Source of the DNA: Bugula neritina
Lineage: Eukaryota; Bryozoa; Gymnolaemata; Cheilostomatida; Bugulidae
Direction: 5' to 3'
Assembly: GCA_964035545.1 (NCBI GenBank)
Contig: OZ037766.1
Coordinates: forward strand, 1,898,501-1,962,500
DNA length: 64,000 nucleotides
Shown: one piece after another, positions 2,723 to 61,200 of the stretch
Numbering within the stretch: the first letter of the stretch is position 1
How the letters are laid out: each line of letters begins with the position of its first letter
Position numbers and translations under genes: made by a program
Notes under the pieces: generated by a model
Databases searched by the model: none
What the model saw: only the letters and a program-made list of their open reading frames with translations
Told to the model about the DNA's origin: nothing

Positions 2723-3945
2723 TAGCATGGGTGGCCATAGCATAGGGTGGCCATAGCATATAATAGGGTGGCCATAGCATACAATAGGGTGGTCATAGCA
2801 TATAATAGGGTGGTCATAGCATATAATAGGGTGGTCATAGCATATAATAGGGTGGCCATAGCATACAATAGGGTGGTCATAGCATATAATAGGGTGGTCA
2901 TAGCATATAATAGGGTGGTCATAGCATATAATAGGGTGGCCATAGCATATAATAGGGTGGCCATAGCATATAATAGGGTGGCCATAGCATATAATAGGGT
3001 GGTCATAGCATATAATAGGGTGGCCATAGCATATAATAGGGTGGCCATAGCATATAATAGGGTGGCCATAGCATACAATAGGGTGGTCATAGCATATAAT
3101 AGGGTGGTCATAGCATATAATAGGGTGGTCATAGCATATAATAGGGTGGCCATAGCATATAATAGGGTGGTCATAGCATATAATAGGGTGGCCATAGCAT
3201 ATAATAGGGTGGCCATAGCATATAATAGGGTGGTCATAGCATATAATAGGGTGGCCATAGCATATAATAGGGTGGCCATAGCATATAATAGGGTGGCCAT
3301 AGCATACAATAGGGTGGCCATAGCATATAATAGGGTGGTCATAGCATATAATAGGGTGGCCATAGCATATAATAGGGTGGTCATAGCATATAATAGGGTG
3401 GTCATAGCATATAATAGGGTGGTCATAGCATATAATAGGGTGGCCATAGCATATAATAGGGTGGTCATAGCATATAATAGGGTGGCCATAGCATATAATA
3501 GGGTGGCCATAGCATATAATAGGGTGGTCATAGCATATAATAGGGTGGCCATAGCATATAATAGGGTGGCCATAGCATATAATAGGGTGGCCATAGCATA
3601 CAATAGGGTGGTCATAGCATATAATAGGGTGGCCATAGCATATAATAGGGTGGCCATAGCATATAATAGGGTGGTCATAGCATATAATAGGGTGGCCATA
3701 GCATATAATAGGGTGGCCATAGCATATAATAGGGTGGCCATAGCATACAATAGGGTGGTCATAGCATATAATAGGGTGGCCATAGCATATAATAGGGTGG
3801 TCATAGCATACAATAGGGTGGCCATAGCATATAATAGGGTGGCCATAGCATATAATAGGGTGGTCATAGCATATAATAGGGTGGCCATAGCATATAATAG
3901 GGTGGTCATAGCATATAATAGGGTGGTCATAGCATAGCATAGGGT
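2723..3945. repeat. 21-bp minisatellite, about 57 units
   Basis: Tandem array with unit GGYCATAGCATAYAATAGGGT. Almost all variation is confined to two C/T positions. Because 21 is a multiple of three and the unit lacks stops in several frames, long open frames of heptapeptide repeats appear on both strands; these are by-products of the array and not genes. The C/T states show a higher-order pattern, described in the findings. Confidence 0.97.
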
Positions 3946-3959
3946 GCAGTAGGCAAGTT

Positions 3960-19564: not shown

Positions 19565-22500
19565 TCAACTTGGACAAGGAGAGCCTATCAAAAAATGCAC
19601 CACATACAATTTCAAACGCAAACATAAATCTAGTCTATGGCCTGAATTATTATAACTTTTACATGCTATGTCATATTGTGGATATCAATTATTAGTTGCT
19701 TATTGAGTTTGGAGTTATGTGTTTTTAATTGTAAAAAACACCCTATTCTGTCACTAATTTATGGATTTCAAACATAGTAGGGTCAAACTTGGTAGGGTCA
19801 ATTCATACAATCATTACTTTGGTCAAATCTTTATATTATGACACCAACCTTTACTTGTTGCATATGCATAAAGAAAGAATGTTTGCTAAAAGCAACTTCT
19901 ATAGCAAAAATGACAATACTTATACCTGAAAGTTCCCAGAATTCAATACTGATCTTATGATGCAAGTTGAAGAAGTATCTACTTTTAAAAGGCTTGTCAC
20001 AGTCCCACAATGCTATGCGGGCATCCACTCTGTTTCCATGACTACGGAATGTTAGTATTCTTAGAATCCCTCGCTTCTGGTGTAATTTCTCGAGAATTTC
20101 CTTTAAGCTGAACTTATTTGTAAAATAGAGCTCGGGGCTTTTGTATTTCTGAGCTAAGTAAGGTCCAAAGGCTGTGGTCCTAAATATGTACTGCAGGTTA
20201 TCAAACCCACGTATACTGTCTGCCGATTTGCCCTTACTGATTTCAATCGGCTTGGTCCCCATGCTATGTTCTCCACCAAGTTTGTTAAAGGCTACGGATA
20301 GCCTGAGAGCTGAAGTATCTGCTAGATTAAGGGTTGGATAATGGGCGTCTCCAACTATAAACTGTATCAACTCGTCTCCATAGGCCCCTCCATAATGTCT
20401 GTATCCAGGATATACTTTACTTAGTTCGTGAAATGATGGCAGAGGCATCTAAAATCATGGAGTAGAGTTTGATAGTATAAAATAAAGCCATTCCTGAGAA
20501 AATTTAGCAGCATGTGTTTTAGTAATTTTTATTTAAACTTTCATTGGATGATAGATTGAAGGTTTTTATTTTCAAATAAACAGTATGTTTATGGGCTCTA
20601 TGCTTTAAAAGAGCTGCATGGGTTTTACTCAAGTATGGATATTAGTTGTCATTACAAATTGAAGATGTTTTTGTTGGAAGGCAAACTCTGTAAGCATTTT
20701 ACAACTCAAATCTGAAGGAATGAAGTGTATCATGTAATAACATACATGTTATAGCACCTGTGTGCTATAGCAAACAATAAAGCGTAGCAGTAAGTACGGT
20801 AGTGTAGAAGTAAGTAGTGTAGAGGTAAGTAGAGTAGAAGTAAGTAGTGTAGAGGTAAGTAGTGTAGAGTTAAGTAGTGTAGAGGTAAGTAGTGTAGAGG
20901 TAAGTAGTGTAGAGGTAAGTAGTGTAGAGGTAAGTAGAGTAGAGGTAAGTAGTGTAGGAGTAAGTAGTGTAGAGGTAAGTAATGTAGAGGTAAGTAGTGT
21001 AGAGGTAAGTAATGTAGAAGTAAGTAGTGTAGAAGTAAGTAGTGTAGAGGTAAGTAATGTAGAGGTAAGTAGTGTAGAGGTAAGTAATGTAGAAGTAAGT
21101 AATGTAGAAGTAAGTAGTGTAGAGGTAAGTAGTGTAGAGGTAAGTTCACAAGTTGTAATATTTAGTGGATTATAGAGATAATCCTAACAGATTAAGGTGA
21201 GTAATCCTGTCCACTAATTCTCCTTTAATACTACGAATTAGCCGTCCATCACTAAATTCTTACCAAGGAGTACATATTGTACGTATACATTAGTGTATAG
21301 TATACATACAAGTGTGTATAGCAGGTATACATGTTCATTTATATTTCCTATTAAATATTATTTGTACATCAATTTTTTGTAAAGGATTAAGTCCAACAGT
21401 AACCAAGGTCTTCAGGTGCAGTTTGGGCTTCAATAACGTCTAACAAAGAAATTCGAGGCTTAAGAGAGTCCAACACATTTTTTCTAAACCAAAATACAAA
21501 CTAGCCTTTGGAAAACTGATAATTATGTTATTCTGAAAAAAGGATTATATAATTTCATCACATTATATAGTATTATATTATATGGTATTATCTACTCTAC
21601 TCTACTAGAATGGCATTCACGCTGTTGCGAATGTTTACTCAAGATCTCAATCAGTACAGGGCTAGCTAATAGAAAAACCTCCATTCTCTCTATCCAAATT
21701 TTAAACTGATAATTATAAACCAAAGCTCGGTCATAAACAGAGCCCCATGGATTGACATTGTTTTTATAAAGTCGCAATTTCAATGCTCTTTTATGGGCTC
21801 AAACCTCTAATAAAAGGTGATTTTTGTCTTACAGATAACATCTTCATTCAAACTCAAATCCCCAAACAGACAAATTAATAATCAAAATTAACTTTTAAAC
21901 AAAAGCTTTGTGCCAGCCAAACATGTGACACCCACTGCTATCCAAGACTAATCAATTTTCTTTTTATTTCTTAGAGCGCCAACTTCGAGACTAAAACCAC
22001 ATGATTGGCTGTGAATTAGTCAAACTGTGATTTCCTCCGCCTTTTTTTTAGGTGGTTTATTTGCAACTCTAACATCTTAAAGTTTGAATATGTTTGTTAA
22101 ATGTGCACCCATCATGGTGAATATTAACCAGTATATTATTTACCTTAACTGAGTTTTAAAGAGTAAAGAGAATACAATACAGCATTGAACTATAGGCCAG
22201 GTGTTCCATGTGCAGAGTTTTAAAAGCTGTTTGTTTGTGGATACTAACTGCTTTACTAAACAAACAAGCAACCATGTAGAAATGCCATTTGGTGTGAAAA
22301 GCTAGCCACAAGTATGCTATTGAGTACTCAGCCTATGTAACTATGTACTCAACCTAAGTTGCTATATGCTACAAGGTTAGGTGGCTAATGCCAGATACTT
22401 TCATTATAATATTATAAATGTATGAAAACTTAAAAACTATCAAACATACTTTATAGAAATATACTGATAACTGTTAGTATCAGGTTTGCTAATGAACTAT

Positions 22501-23511
22501 AAACACATTTTATATAGAGTACAGGTAGCACAAGCTAGAGAAAACAGAATTTGTCAACACAACTATATGAATTTGCAGATTTGTATTGATTAAACATATA
22601 TTCTGTAATAATATAGCAAGATACTATATAATATAGCAAGATAAACATACATTATATCATATAGCAATATATTATATCTAAAAGGTTCATAAGGTACATT
22701 TGCGCTTCTTCCTGTACATTACATTTATGTCTTTATGCTGGGTGATTTTCAAAGGTAAAAATAGTGCAAATTACCTTACTATTGTTGTGTAAGATATATT
22801 TTTGTAGAACTAAATCTTTAGGTCAGAAAATTATATTATAAATAATCATTAATTAGGTGTCAAAACTGTTACAAACCAATATCATTGTAGTTATGATATT
22901 ATTATCAAGTTTAAAACTCATAAGATAACAATCGCATTTTAAATCAGTTTAAATAAAAAGGAAAGTTAACCCTAGAGTATATTTGACTTGAAACAGCAGC
23001 TAATTGTTTTCTCTGTATACAATATATTACATATATATTATTTAGAATCTGCATTACTCAACATGGTATAATTAGCATACTAATTAGATGAGCATCTTCT
23101 ACTTTGCCATTTCAACTCTAAACAACTTACAATCTGTGTAAATATGTGATACATACTTCCATTGATGCTTTTAATAGTTTGCAATAAATAAATTCACATA
23201 ATTTAAGGAAAATTCATATAAGATTTACTTCACAACTACCCAAATCATCATTTATAATGTCTATAATGATCATTATACCCATAGTGTCTTAACAGTTACA
23301 CAACATTTTATATACATCAAAGCTTTACCACATGATTATAATATTTAATTTAATATAATAAAATTAGTATTACTTTCAATGTCATAAAGTTGTATTTAAC
23401 ACAGCAGCAGCAGCTGCAACAGCATGCAGTAACATATTATATACTTACCGTGGCCACGATGGTAAAGAGATGTGGAATAATTTGAGTAACTACGTAGCAG
23501 ATTAGGAGCAT
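19565..23511 (-). CDS. Secreted Tae4-like (domesticated T6SS amidase effector) protein, catalytic residues substituted
   Basis: Three exons on the minus strand: 23511-23449, 20448-19926 and 19584-19565, with phases 0 and 1. Exon 1 encodes a 21-residue hydrophobic leader beginning MLLICYVVTQ, a likely signal peptide. Exon 2 carries the whole Tae4-like domain: PSFHELSKVYPGY at its start, then LADTSALRLSVAFNKLGG, later GILRILTF and ARIALWD. Bacterial Tae4 proteins are cell-wall DL-endopeptidases injected by type VI secretion; homologues transferred to animals are called dae genes and are secreted antibacterial factors. By my manual alignment the nucleophile Cys position is Ser (residue 67 of the precursor) and the catalytic His position is Arg (165), while the LWD triplet (168-170) remains. 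The reading frame is intact, so this looks like a maintained pseudoenzyme rather than a dead gene. Exon 3 adds a short GSPCPS tail and is the least certain part. The 3-kb intron after the leader is lineage-made. Confidence 0.72.
20770..21146. repeat. 15-bp minisatellite in intron 1 of the Tae4-like gene
   Basis: About 25 units of AGTGTAGAGGTAAGT with G/A variants. Each unit contains GGTAAGT on the plus strand, a perfect splice-donor match, but the host gene runs on the other strand. A long open frame of LHYLPLHYL-type repeats on the minus strand is a by-product of the 15-bp period. Confidence 0.95.
21147..23448 (-). other. Rest of intron 1 of the Tae4-like gene
   Basis: AT-rich intron without a convincing exon. 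A minus-strand open stretch at 21783-21592 (63 codons, including SVYDRALVYNYQFKIWIERM) looks somewhat protein-like, but it has no recognised domain and no clear splice sites, so I do not call a gene. Confidence 0.4.
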
Positions 23512-50982: not shown

Positions 50983-51246
50983 TTATTCCCAAGGCTTACG
51001 CGGTAGCTCCTTAGTGCAACTAGTAACTGGCTCCTTTGTAGGCTCCACAACTATAGTCTCAGCGCCAGGTATTTCTTCACCCCTTTCTATATACTCCATT
51101 ACTTGTTTGAATGACAAAGGATGGGGTGGCTGTTCTTGTGGTGCTGATTCGACACCTTTAGCTTCGGTTTGAGGTTGTTGAGAGGAAAAATCGTCAACTT
51201 GGTTGGTTAGAGAATTCAGCACCTTATCTTTTAAAATTGTAGACAT
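50983..51246 (-). CDS. PEX39: PEX39/C6orf226-like small protein
   Basis: Single open frame of 87 residues on the minus strand, starting MSTILKDKVLNSLTNQ and ending KELPRKPWE before the stop. The core LSFKQVMEYIERGEEIPGAE followed by a C-terminal (R/K)-PWE motif is the signature of the C6orf226 family, renamed peroxin 39 after work showing that it assists PEX7-dependent import of PTS2 cargo into peroxisomes. The N-terminal half is polar and low in complexity (SSQQPQTEAKG). The length is close to that of the human protein's conserved part. The identification rests on these two motifs only. An upstream non-coding exon ending near 51740 is possible. Confidence 0.65.
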   Translation of the reverse strand: MSTILKDKVLNSLTNQVDDFSSQQPQTEAKGVESAPQEQPPHPLSFKQVMEYIERGEEIPGAETIVVEPTKEPVTSCTKELPRKPWE

Positions 51247-52191
51247 TCTTTCTGTGAGATTAAATTTTCTGAAAAACGTAATATATTATTTATTCTCTTT
51301 AAACTAACAAATGCTACTGATTTAAAAGAGTTATCTAAATACAATTATTAAAAATAAGTACATATATTAACTGTTGTCACTTTTATATAATTAATGTAAA
51401 ACTTTAATCAATTTTGCAAGCGTAAAAATACAAACTTTTATTTTGGAGCGATTAGCAGTCATTATATCCAAAGTATCACACTTTATAACATCTACAGGCG
51501 CAAACTCATAAAACTGTAGGCATATTAACATATAAACATAAAAGATTAGAAAGCTATTGCATTCGTCTTTATTTTGATTTAACTCATCAAAATATATTCA
51601 TACTATAATGTTTGTTAGGAATATCATGCGCTAAGTTTATTCATCAAAGAAGAAATCAACACATGAGTGACACTACACACATTTCTCCTGTACTGATAGT
51701 AGATGCTACAAAACTACTCAATCTTCATGATGCATACCTGGAAAAATAGAATAATTTGGCGGAAATTAGTTGCCTAGCAACTAAAGCATTATCTCTTTGG
51801 TCATTAAAGGAAGTGGAAAGATGCCGCCAACCATCCACAAATTCACCATCTTCTTTAAAATTATACTGTTTATATCTGCAATCAAATGCAATGCAGAATA
51901 AAAACTTAGAAAACCAATGGGGAGATTATCAAATACAAATCATTCTTGATATCATATCACTGGAGTTATTCATTGCTAGATATTAAACTTAACAATACGC
52001 TAACCAAATACCCTATGTACTGATATTACAACATTATAATTGTTAATATTATGTGATATTACTTAATATCAACTCGAGAGAGAAACAGAAGTTACTGGTT
52101 TAAAGGTTCCATAACTGAATAAAATACCTACTTAAGGTGTAAGTCACATGATAAAGCCTCAGTGTCCTCAGATAACCCATTTAGCGGGTGG
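51247..52191. other. Upstream region of the PEX39-like gene
   Basis: No supported coding exon; a plus-strand 76-codon open frame at 51756-51986 has no features of a protein. It contains an X-box at 51769-51781, listed separately. Confidence 0.4.
51769..51781. promoter_or_regulatory. X-box (RFX-binding) motif
   Basis: GTTGCCTAGCAAC fits the RFX consensus GTNRCC-N(0-3)-RGYAAC exactly, with a one-base spacer and a near-perfect palindrome. It lies about 520 bp upstream of the PEX39-like start codon (minus) and about 410 bp past the end of the small gene ending at 52192. RFX X-boxes mark promoters of ciliary genes in animals, but they also occur by chance at this length. Confidence 0.5.
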
Positions 52192-53273: not shown

Positions 53274-54703
53274 GTTAGTCATCTCCCAGCTGCACAAAGT
53301 GATCACAGTCAGTAATATACTTATAGAGAATAGTTTATGTCAAAAGCCACAATAGTAAACAGTTCATAAATTTATAAATTATAAAGCATTCATTGCTTCA
53401 AATAAATTATTGATTACATTAATCATACAATAATCATAATGATAATGAGTTGCAATTATATCAAAATCATAATGATTATGATAATCATATTGATATATAG
53501 TTATACTTATAGTTATACTCATACTAATAGTAATACTTCTAGCAATAATTATTTCATTTAAATATACAATATTATTATAAATATATAGATTAAAAATAAA
53601 TCCGTAATTCGTTAATATTAATAATAATATTAATAGTAATACTTATACTGTAATAGTAATACTAATAGTATTAGCAATACTATTAATATTATATTGATAG
53701 TAATTGTATATTGGTAATTCATAAACTTGAAGCCAAATGCCACATTTAAATGTAAATTATGAAATTTTGATTCAAATTAACATAATTGATAATATTTATT
53801 TATATTTAATTAAATTTAATTATTTAATATTTATTTACTTGTAAATTCAAATTGATTACCATCAGGGCATTATCGTTATGAGTATGTGACTTCAGCTTCT
53901 GGTTTTTAAAATAAAAGCGTTTTATATAAAAGTAAATACATCACAATTAATTAAAGTATGAAGATTACAAATGGAACAATAAAACATTATAGTTTGAAAT
54001 GTCAAAAGCACAAAATTTGCTTACCTCTAAAAAACAATTGCAGTTTAACATTGACCGTAGTCGTAATATGTCTAACAAATACTTCTTTGTCACTAAATTC
54101 GTGACGAGTTAAGAAGTCTGCGTTTGCTGGCTAAATAAACTGAGGCTAATTACGACAGCGATTTTAGTTCAATTACTTCTTTATAATCAACACGCCTCTG
54201 TTTTAGTTGCGACTATGAGTATGAGTCTTTGACATTTTAAACCGAAAGCCTTGCACCCAGCCAACTTCAACTTGGTGCCCCTACCATTCAGTGACTGTGA
54301 GTTCTAATGGGCAATGAACAAGCTAAAAAATTGAACTTGTCAAGTGTGTAATGGTTATTACTCTAAGGACTAACACAGTCACATGACTATCACTATCAGT
54401 ATGAGTATCACAGCACCGGTACGAGTATGACATTAACTGATTAACTGGGAGTAAAACTAAATCAAAATGAGACATAAGTAACTCAAATCTTAAAATCAAT
54501 ATGAATATCAGTTAATAATTTACTGTTATTACTATGACTATGGGTATTGGTATTAGTATTACTATTATTATTATAACTATAGTCTCTGACTCTAGTAATA
54601 ACACTAATAAACTACCAATAGTAATAGTAATAGGCAATAGTAATACTTAGTCTAATACTAATAAAGTAATAGTAATCCTAGTACTAGTAGTTTAATACTA
54701 ACA
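53274..54703. other. Spacer with degenerate hexamer-like DNA
   Basis: No gene. At 53400-53720 and 54370-54700 the DNA is built of loosely repeated TAATAGTAATACTAATAG / AGTATNACTATN blocks. The truncated retrotransposon begins directly inside the second tract. Confidence 0.6.
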
Positions 54704-55660
54704 ACAACAGGTGTACCACAGGGATCAGTGTTAGGGCCGGTACTTTTTTTAGTCTTTATAAATGATCTTCCTGAGTGTCTCAACTGCTCTTGTGCTCTTT
54801 TTGCCGATGACACACTTGTTTACCAAGAAATTTCCTCATCTAAAGACTGTAAGAAATTTCAGCGCAACCTGGACTCTCTTAGTACTTGGGCGAATAAGTG
54901 GGGAATGTCATTTAACATCTCCAAGAGCAAGATAATCAGCTTTAACCCTAAGACCGGCACTCTCCAATACAAGCTTAGTGGATCAGTGTTGGATCATGTT
55001 GGCTCAACAAAATACTTTGGTGTAACACTGCAATCAGACTGTAAATTTGACCAACACATCCTAAAGAAGATTCTTGTTGCAAAACGGCAATTAGGTATGA
55101 TAAAACGTGCACTCTACTGGGCCCCCAAGAGAGCAAAGCTTATTGCTTACAAAGCCCTCTGTCTCCCACACTTGGAATATGCCAGTGCAGCCTGGGACAT
55201 ATTCAGCAAAAACTATATAAGTATAATGGAGAATGTGCAAACAGATGCTGTGCGTTTTATCTCCAACAGCAAAGGAAGAACTGATATTGGGGAGGAGATG
55301 AAAAAGCTGTGTTTGGAGCCGCTTGATCTAAGGAGGAAAAGCCGACGCATCAGCCTTCTTCTAAAAATATTGTCTAAGGAAGAACAACATCCAACTCTGA
55401 GTGCTGCCTATGATGATTTTCTGGATCAGCGGACCACAAGCACTGTACAGACTCGGTCTCAGGTTTCAGGATTTCCCAGATCAGTGAGAGCAAACAGGAA
55501 TGCATATCTTTATAGTTTTCTCCCAAGAACGATAAGAGATATGAGGATCAGCACTGATCACACACAGACAGGCTAGTTAGCCTGTTAAGTTAATCTGCAC
55601 AAGAATTTTAACACTTTTTAGACTACTGTCCAAGTACTGACAACTTCTATTTTTTCTTCC
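54704..55660 (+). mobile_element. 5'-truncated non-LTR retrotransposon (Jockey/CR1-like)
   Basis: Open from about 54704 to the TAG at 55574-55576. The translation contains GVPQGSVLGPVLFLVFINDL, the catalytic ALFADDTLVY box, WANKWGMSFNISKSKI, TKYFGVTL and LPHLEYASAAWD, the conserved C-terminal half of a LINE reverse transcriptase. The endonuclease and the N-terminal reverse-transcriptase blocks are missing, as usual after incomplete target-primed reverse transcription. No stops or frameshifts interrupt the 290 codons, so the insertion is fairly recent. The 3' end is not clear; it is set approximately at the T-rich run near 55650. The family could also be Rex- or L2-like. Confidence 0.88.
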
Positions 55661-58220: not shown

Positions 58221-61200
58221 ATGTATCTATCAGCTACCATTTTTGTTATTCTCTCCCAGATTTTGGCTGCAAGTACGGAGGAGATAACTCTTAAACTGGT
58301 TGGAGGGTAAGTATTGAAGTATTATTTTAAATACTACTTGTTTGAAAATGCTTACCTTAAAACACTTTTTAAATTAAAAATTCTACACTTTTCATAATTT
58401 TTTAAAATATGTTTGGGCGAGCGATGTGGTATAAGTTTGGATTTCTAACCGCTAATCATGATAAACATTAAATCAGGTGAATGAACCCATCTTATGCAAT
58501 GTGAAGCATACTGCTTTACTTAGGTGCTCCACTATGTGTTATATTTCTCTCACATTATAATAACATACATCAGGGATATTGCTGCACTTTTCCTGAAAAT
58601 GCTGTAACTGGCTAATTGTGTAGTGCTAAATAATCTATGGCTATGGCAGTTACAATAGAATAGTGTTTCTTTTTTAAATTTGCTCACAAACTTTTTGTTT
58701 GTGGTGAATTTTTAGAGAAAATAAAGTAAAAACTCTCTGAAGTGTTGCAATGGATTTGCATGTGTAGCCTAGAATTTTCAAACATCCCTTTTTACATCAG
58801 GAAACATTTTCCTAAAGAAACGCCAGCTCAATGGGCCCTTTGTTTGCGCCCCACTTTGCATAGTGTACACCACTGGCTTTGTACTGACTATAAACTTCTC
58901 TCATTGCTTTAGAGTATATGAGGGAAATGTGCTGGTGAAAAGGGGGTCTGAATGGGGTCTCGTATGCGATGATGAGTGGGACATTGAAGATGGTAACGTC
59001 ATCTGTCGTCAGCTGGGACTGGGAAAAGCTGTTGGCATAACAAAGTATAACAAATATGGCTCCAGTTTAACAGGTCGGTATATGATAATATACATACAGT
59101 ATACGTATTGTATAATATCATATATATACAGTCTACGTATTGTATAATATCATATATATACAGTCTACGTATTGTATAATATCATATAGTATACAGTCTA
59201 CGAATTGTATAATATCATATAGTATACAGTCTACATATTGTATGATATCATATAGTGTACATTCTTTGAAAGATTGCGAGATAATGGGTATTGTCAGTTG
59301 GACAGGTTTGATAAACTCTTACATCACTTCCTTTAGCCTTAGACCTAAATATATTCCTTGGGAACTACATGTTGCTGCCTATTGGCTGATGCCATAGAAA
59401 ACAAGGAACAATCTATAAACAACTTGTGTTGTTCTGTGTAGTTCAACAAATATCCCTGTAAATATATATGTTGGCTTTATTCTTGTCTCTATGCAACTAG
59501 CTGACATGTAAAATCTTAAAGCAGTTTTCCTATTAACTTCTTCCTTAATCACGTGTGTTTTGAAACCATTTTATGCTGCCAAAACAACTGATGACGTAAA
59601 GAAGCACGCCTTGGAACAAAAGACAGTCCAGTGTATTATATAAGCTGGTCATAGCAGACGTCTGTTACATCTAGCTCTGTTTACTTCTCCAACTCTTAGC
59701 TGAATAGCCATTAGACCTAGTTGTTAAACCTGCTAAATGATTTAATGCAGAAATTTCTTTCAGGGTATATTTGGTTTCAATTATAGAACATTGAGTAGAT
59801 TTATAGGTTAATAAATTTAATGTTGTTAGGTATCTATTTACCTAATCAATAAAATTTCATTTAAATTCATTCAATAAAATTTCATTTAAATTTTTTCAAT
59901 AACATTTTATTTAAATTCATTCAATAAAATTAAGTTTTAAATTCATTCAATAAAGTTTCATTTGAATTCATTCAATAAAATTAAGTTTTAATTTGATTTG
60001 TAAAATATTATATAATTCAAGGTTTTATTGAGTCTGAGACTACTGATTTGTCACGTGTTTCTACCTGCGTTTCTGCCTGCTATTGTTCTACTTGGGCGTG
60101 GAAGCTGAGTTTAGTGACTTGTTCGGATGAAGGCGTTGATTACTCCCAGTCGGGGTAAATGCCGGGGATGATTGGGAGAGCTGAGTTTGACCTTTGCTGT
60201 TGTATTTGGCCTCTGATTCTGTAATATAATTGTTTCATTGATTGCTGTGGGATGATCAATAGACTAGCATGTGGTTACACTTACATCACATACGTACAGT
60301 GATATACTTACATCACATACGTACAGTGATATACTTACATCACATACGTACAGTGATATACTTACATCACATACGTACAGTGATATACTTACATCACATA
60401 CGTACAGTGATATACTTACATCACATACGTACAGTGATACACTTACATCACATACGTACAGTGATACACGTACAGCAATACTCTGGAATAAGGTATACTT
60501 CAGAATAAGATATACTATTGAATAGTATATCTTATATTCCATGAATTCTATGAATATAATATATACAACATACAGTGTATGTAGGCCTATAAAACTTATA
60601 TAGAATATGGCAGAGTATACTGTAAATATATAAGTCTGTAATATACAATATATGTACCCAGTGTACATACAACTACTATCTGGTGATGTGTAGGTGTTAT
60701 TTGATGTCACATGACACAGTTATTCTGCATTTTCGTTTTAATGTATTTTTGTTTGTTTTTCAATAATTTTACTTAATTTATGTTCCGTGGGCCAATTGAA
60801 CTCATTTCAAGACATATACTTTTACTATGCGGTGCATATGTAGAGTATGTACTCTTACTGCAAACTCTAGCAGTATAGATAATGAAAATAGAAATGGTGT
60901 ATATCTGTTATATAAACACCTGGACACCCATATTAGCAGCTTTGATAACTCAAACCATCAAAAGGAGTTTGGCATTTAGTCTAGGGTCTAACTATTTCAA
61001 GTTGAGCTTTATATAGACTGCAATTGCTATTACGTAATAACAACAGTAATAATAACCACACTCTGTGCAAGTATGGTTAATTATATTAATTGCTGTGTGT
61101 TTTCCAAGGTGTTCATTTCTTTGATATGCTGTAGTTACTATAATTTCTCCTAATATACTCCAGCTCCAAAGGCTCCTTGTTTTTCTCATTCTCCTCTCAG

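Follow-up and report, generated by a model that had tools for sequence, protein, structure and literature searches.

The gene described here lies on the minus strand of a 64,000-nucleotide stretch of the genome of the bryozoan Bugula neritina (assembly GCA_964035545.1, contig OZ037766.1, positions 1,898,501 to 1,962,500), referred to below as the window, and it encodes a protein related to the Tae4 peptidoglycan amidases in which Ser67 and Arg165 stand at the sites of the catalytic Cys and His. Judged from its sequence, this protein is very probably non-catalytic, and we favour, with moderate confidence, the view that it represents an old, conserved and probably secreted pseudo-amidase of Tae4 fold, which would bind peptidoglycan fragments without cutting them. 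The comparison was based on 142 animal-type rows, comprising 140 proteins from three protein searches, the window protein and its paralogue, with named sources among molluscs (gastropods, bivalves, chiton, octopus, argonaut), annelids (Capitella, Paralvinella, Owenia) and Bugula; they should not be counted as independent observations, since P0001 and P0002 nearly duplicate the window gene and the paralogue. The nucleophile column contained Ser in 111 rows, Ala in 21, Thr in nine and a gap in one, Cys being found in 0 of the 141 rows with a letter. Moreover, the third Asp of the triad, present at His+2 or His+11 in 69 of 71 bacterial relatives, was observed in 0 of 139 animal-type rows.

Gene structure and predicted Tae4 fold

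The gene comprises three exons (23511-23449, 20448-19926 and 19584-19565); each junction bears splice signals and the frame of 201 amino acids is unbroken, in agreement with the intact frame and splice sites described in the initial annotation. Its features, in window positions, are the following.

23449..23511, minus strand: exon 1, with the ATG and a hydrophobic N-terminus (MLLICYVVTQIIPHLFTIVAT), a likely signal peptide; donor GTAAGTATA
20449..23448, minus strand: intron 1, 3.0 kb, recognised by splice signals and containing a 15-bp tandem array
19926..20448, minus strand: exon 2, with the Tae4-fold domain (residues 22-195) and the first base of codon 196
20311..20313, minus strand: codon TCA for Ser67, aligned with the Cys nucleophile (Cys44 of S. 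typhimurium Tae4, StTae4)
20017..20019, minus strand: codon CGC for Arg165, aligned with the catalytic His (StTae4 His126)
20011..20013, minus strand: codon GCA for Ala167 (His+2), site of the third-triad Asp in 66 of 71 bacterial relatives
19999..20001, minus strand: Cys171 of the LWDC motif, for which Cys199 is the probable disulfide partner
19585..19925, minus strand: intron 2 (phase 1), whose position molluscs and annelids appear to share, judging by protein tails
19565..19584, minus strand: exon 3, with the rest of codon 196, SPCPS and the stop TGA

The array within intron 1 (20799-21145) consists of 23 copies of a 15-bp unit, which on the plus strand, antisense to the gene, holds the donor-like word GTAAGT.

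In the protein search, the closest protein was B. neritina EB796_019845, with 95% identity over 201 amino acids. Three of the 11 differences fall in the N-terminal hydrophobic stretch, seven in the domain and one at the C-terminus, and none touches the catalytic-site or other discussed residues. P0001 shares the first 21 residues of the window protein except for three changes, and it ends in SPCTS. A chance open reading frame or a pseudogene was rejected on account of the full-length orthologue. Since the N-terminus is hydrophobic (top 11-residue Kyte-Doolittle mean of 2.41), the protein is probably secreted, and a hydrophobic stretch was likewise present in 77 of the 88 animal rows bearing an N-terminal extension.

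The predicted structure of the window protein displayed, with high confidence, the NlpC/P60 papain-like Tae4 fold. The comparison to Protein Data Bank (PDB) chains was made with Foldseek and covered its top 1000 chains. Cys57 and His139, in the chain numbering of the solved Tae4 structure 4j30, align with Ser67 and Arg165, and their spacing of 82 is the same as that of Cys44-His126, which places the two window residues at the Cys and His sites. With the Pfam model PF14113, exon 2 alone scored 23.2 bits, under the curated cut-off of 27, while the paralogue reached 32.2 bits; 71 of the 72 members of alignment A3, which includes 72 of the rows, matched at E<=0.01. A search of six proteins against NCBIfam gave no match to a Tae4 model. 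Sequence, profile, predicted fold and relatives altogether uphold the earlier claim of a Tae4-fold protein that has kept its scaffold but not the Cys nucleophile or the catalytic His. The window protein differs from known Tae4 (PF14113; PDB 4J30, 4HFL, 4BI3, 6IJF) in being devoid of the Cys, the His and the third Asp, and the gene differs in having two introns, a hydrophobic N-terminus and the LWDC motif with a C-terminal Cys, as well as in being an animal gene and not part of a type VI secretion locus.

Residues at the catalytic sites

StTae4 is described as using a Cys44-His126 dyad with Asp137, and its growth phenotype as being abolished by Ala at Cys44 or His126 or by mutation of Asp137 (PMC3695027). 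In some Tae4 proteins, the third-triad Asp is supplied from His+2 (PMC6277958), and the bond cut by bacterial Tae4 is given as gamma-D-Glu-mDAP (PMC7641422). The window protein presents Ser67, Arg165, Ala167 and Lys176 at the Cys, His, His+2 and His+11 sites, respectively. The assignments of Ser67 and Arg165 in the initial annotation are thus confirmed by several agreeing alignments, and a misalignment was rejected because three of them, including the bacterial and 4j30 comparisons, coincide.

Across the same 142 rows, the His column contained His in 130, Arg in eight, Gln in one (a fragment) and a gap in three, and all eight Arg rows, namely the window protein, the paralogue and six more, belong to the Bugula clade. 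The loss goes beyond the single gene considered in the initial annotation: the Cys and the third Asp are missing from every animal row with a letter at these sites, and the His-to-Arg change alone is particular to that clade. Ala at the nucleophile site with the His kept was observed mostly in annelid-type rows (P0113, P0125, P0112 and similar), whereas Paralvinella P0128 carries Ser, and P0111, a row of the Bugula clade, carries Thr.

The bacterial control combined family searches of 12 seed genomes with those of four phylum samples, in which 29 of 282, 13 of 398, eight of 296 and six of 246 genomes gave matches; two matches of the first sample had no locus and were left out. It consisted of 74 loci and 73 different proteins, since locus L061 returned its neighbour's gene, a duplicate. 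Cys was found in 72 of these proteins and Ser in one, with His in 71 and a gap in two; without the 14 genes chosen by pattern, the values were 58 of 59 for Cys and 57 of 57 with a letter for His. The animal fragments P0117-P0120 were left out of some alignments, including this bacterial comparison. Of the eight columns conserved at >=90% in bacteria, just two have no animal row with the bacterial residue, namely those of the nucleophile Cys and of the Asp at His+2, which argues for a loss specific to catalysis instead of a general decay. At the other six, animals retained R70, G148 and W192 in 100%, H165 in 94%, A68 in 86% and N65 in 13% (mostly Asp).

Furthermore, several residues are near-invariant in animals and not in bacteria, indicating a strong constraint on the animal protein: G36 (125/125 vs 4/71), G42 (128/129 vs 4/35), H82 (134/142 vs 4/73), D98 (141/142 vs 3/36), S99 (141/142 vs 0/32), G116 (142/142 vs 4/73), P117 (142/142 vs 0/73) and C171 (138/139 vs 0/72). 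Frame and predicted fold thus appear to have been maintained while catalytic residues were lost, as in a pseudoenzyme under selection. Cys171 was considered as a substitute nucleophile and rejected, since 86 of the 142 rows have a C-terminal Cys at most five residues after position 196; the two cysteines probably form a disulfide, in which case neither would be a likely nucleophile.

The protein search of the 216-Mb assembly, which was exon-wise and may miss copies, found only two places, the window gene and the paralogue (C1:7191467-7191991; L001:1372-1896), the latter being the only match of the Pfam model in the assembly. The paralogue is 51% identical to the window gene and also has Ser and Arg at the catalytic sites, and with the same proviso on exon-wise searching, an active Tae4 paralogue was rejected. 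Over the alignment, 87 of 174 residues are identical, with a nonsynonymous divergence (dN) of ~0.56 and a saturated synonymous divergence (dS; 3.9 by maximum likelihood, no value by NG86). The window gene encodes this Ser by TCA and the paralogue by AGT; no single step leads from one codon to the other, suggesting that a small hydroxyl residue was kept or regained, and Thr, as in P0111, is a possible intermediate between the two codon families. A last exon matching P0002 was not recognised within 1.5 kb downstream of the paralogue.

Phylogeny and history in animals

The careful tree, unrooted, comprised 95 rows, for which 25 of 122 animal rows were chosen and L100, L101 and L110 were dropped. 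The 25 animal rows formed one clade (100/100), set apart from the 70 bacterial rows by a stem 2.0 changes per column in length, and the six Arg rows included formed one clade (98/92) within it. A quick animal tree of 132 rows, from which 10 of the 142 animal rows (<155 amino acids) and two bacterial rows had been dropped, was run with four bacterial rows; on it, a single change accounts for the His column, and six changes between Ser, Ala and Thr account for the nucleophile column. As the careful tree is unrooted, we infer a transfer from bacteria to animals because Tae4 is so widespread among bacteria. When the animal alignment was used to scan prokaryote genomes, none of the 14 pattern matches was confirmed.

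Residue 196 is Asp or Gly in each of the 137 rows with a letter, and five rows have a gap. All 75 Asp196 rows have a nearby Cys and a median tail of 67, whereas only 11 of the 62 Gly196 rows have such a Cys; among the other 51, 29 end at most 12 residues on and 22 extend for 15 to 95. If the rows had in common a phase-1 intron following FWExP, read either spliced or unspliced, these tails would be explained, the 29 short ones being what a read-through into the intron would give, although the Bugula proteins have Gly196 even in their spliced form. The animal clade, the column changes and the apparently shared intron site suggest that the gene was probably present in the common ancestor of bryozoans, molluscs and annelids, with catalysis already lost by then.

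Bacterial contamination was rejected, since the gene has two introns and the same window contains scavenger receptor cysteine-rich (SRCR), KPWE-domain and reverse transcriptase stretches. The SRCR match lies in an open stretch at 58773-59144 (46.6 bits), the PEX14-like KPWE match in a minus-strand open stretch at 50986-51285 (47.8 bits), and the RVT_1 stretch, probably part of a retroelement, at 54665-55573 (57.5 bits). The window also includes a 21-bp minisatellite (2742-3946) with 57 copies at 96% match, in which several frames are open.

Proposed function and alternative explanations

A non-catalytic recognition role is favoured because the scaffold was kept, the His was mostly kept despite the absence of a Cys nucleophile, and the N-terminus is hydrophobic. 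Under this proposal, a bacterial Tae4-type gene would have entered the lineage before the bryozoan, mollusc and annelid split and would have acquired introns and a signal peptide, with catalysis being lost on the stem. The protein would be exported to body surfaces or fluid, where its papain-like cleft may hold the peptidoglycan stem peptide uncut, making it a soluble factor for recognition, similar to an opsonin. For the Bugula clade, contact with ligand carboxylates may be made by Arg165 in place of the His. Non-catalytic peptidoglycan recognition proteins (PGRPs) offer a precedent, in which an amidase fold became a recognition protein through the loss of catalytic residues. The analogy is a proposal only, the PGRP fold (a zinc amidase, Amidase_2) being unrelated; a search of the genome for Amidase_2 gave no matches, with positive controls that were bacterial and with introns that can hide genes. 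That the ligand is peptidoglycan or a muropeptide is a tentative assignment, whose chances we place slightly below even. A broader proposal, in which the sampled animal Tae4 lineage would have served non-catalytic peptidoglycan recognition since before the phyla split, rebuilt around H82, D98, S99, G116-P117 and C171, is possible and less likely than not.

Several observations weigh against the recognition proposal or limit it. With the Tae4 profile suggested as a check in the initial annotation, the window protein scored 22.6 bits, below the cut-off that the paralogue exceeds. Ser and His occur together in 100 of the 142 animal rows, and His in 130 of 139 rows with a letter, which leaves some room for a Ser-His chemistry in molluscs. 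L088, a bacterial Tae4 relative on a long branch, has Ser at the nucleophile site but still carries the His and the Asp at His+2, and it may represent an independent loss. The animal clade adjoins myxococcal Tae4 with a support of only 83/86, and in the quick tree, setting the Arg group against the remaining named groups takes two changes, P0015 and P0114 being long rows. With regard to sampling, one protein search contributed the 120 listed of its 163 matches. On the bacterial side, the domain taken at each locus was the one that best fitted a model made from 33 pattern-chosen rows (left from 42 after nine fragments, contig-end cuts and odd frames were dropped), in which Cys is 33 of 33 by construction of a Cys-demanding pattern, and 14 of the 73 control rows are themselves pattern-chosen genes. 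Lastly, Tse1 has a Cys at the third-triad equivalent, reportedly without effect on activity (PMC3695027).

This dispensability of the third residue in Tse1 also bears on a changed chemistry, in which Ser or Thr with the kept His would make a serine-type amidase, the dead members being limited to the Bugula clade and the Ala rows. Ser or Thr accompanies His in 108 of the 142 rows, a Bugula-clade row (P0111) has Thr, and the TCA and AGT codons may reflect a selective need for a small hydroxyl side chain. Silicateins illustrate such a shift, their serine-type chemistry being derived from cathepsins. However, the supporting Asp occurs in 0 of 139 rows at either known position, Ala stands at the nucleophile site in 21 rows, Arg replaces the His in eight, and the Asp137 mutation abolishes the StTae4 growth phenotype (PMC3695027). 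With its Ser and Arg, the window gene falls outside this explanation, which we regard as unlikely.

A decoy or inhibitor, which would compete with active amidases, bind bacterial immunity or inhibitor proteins, or regulate an active animal amidase, is hardly more probable. The fold is kept, and such roles are known for pseudoenzymes generally, but the sole other Tae4 copy found by the exon-wise search, which may miss copies, is also Ser/Arg and thus no active partner, weakening the earlier idea of a regulator of an active paralogue. Non-immune co-option, as a structural or developmental extracellular protein (cuticle, shell, larval settlement) with a non-bacterial ligand, would agree with the animal-only conserved residues distant from the triad and with the long C-terminal tails of molluscan rows; however, the majority of rows still carry the His, as if the ancestral cleft had kept its importance, and this possibility is likewise considered improbable. 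Least credible by far is a decaying relic, whether pseudogene or prediction error, for which the Pfam score under cut-off would speak; it is opposed by the intact 201-residue frame, the full-length 95% orthologue, the apparently shared intron site, the strong cross-phylum constraint and the high-confidence predicted fold.

Similarly to the dae genes of animals, the window gene is a Tae-related gene resident in an animal genome, as seen in its two introns, its B. neritina orthologue and the animal clade (100/100), and its hydrophobic N-terminus may correspond to their secretion signal. Animal dae genes were reportedly described by Chou and colleagues in 2015 as active antibacterial amidase toxins; unlike dae genes so described, the animal Tae4 rows here are devoid of the key catalytic residues. 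Tick Dae2 is described as horizontally acquired and active against skin bacteria (PMC7962413). The Tae4 of Giardia muris, also laterally acquired by a eukaryote, is discussed as a recent acquisition and a peptidoglycan amidase (PMC7641422) and, on that description, would differ in both respects from animal Tae4. In a limited search of the open literature, covering titles and abstract openings, no description of an inactive animal Tae4 was found.

Animal dae genes are cited as an example of a bacterial weapon turned into an animal antibacterial enzyme. The route to recognition is known for PGRPs, and for an interbacterial effector none was found in the limited literature search. If the lophotrochozoan Tae4 branch is without cutting residues throughout, the transfer would have yielded a new recognition (or other) protein and not a borrowed enzyme, and shellfish genes labelled as having a Tae4 amidase domain may need new names.
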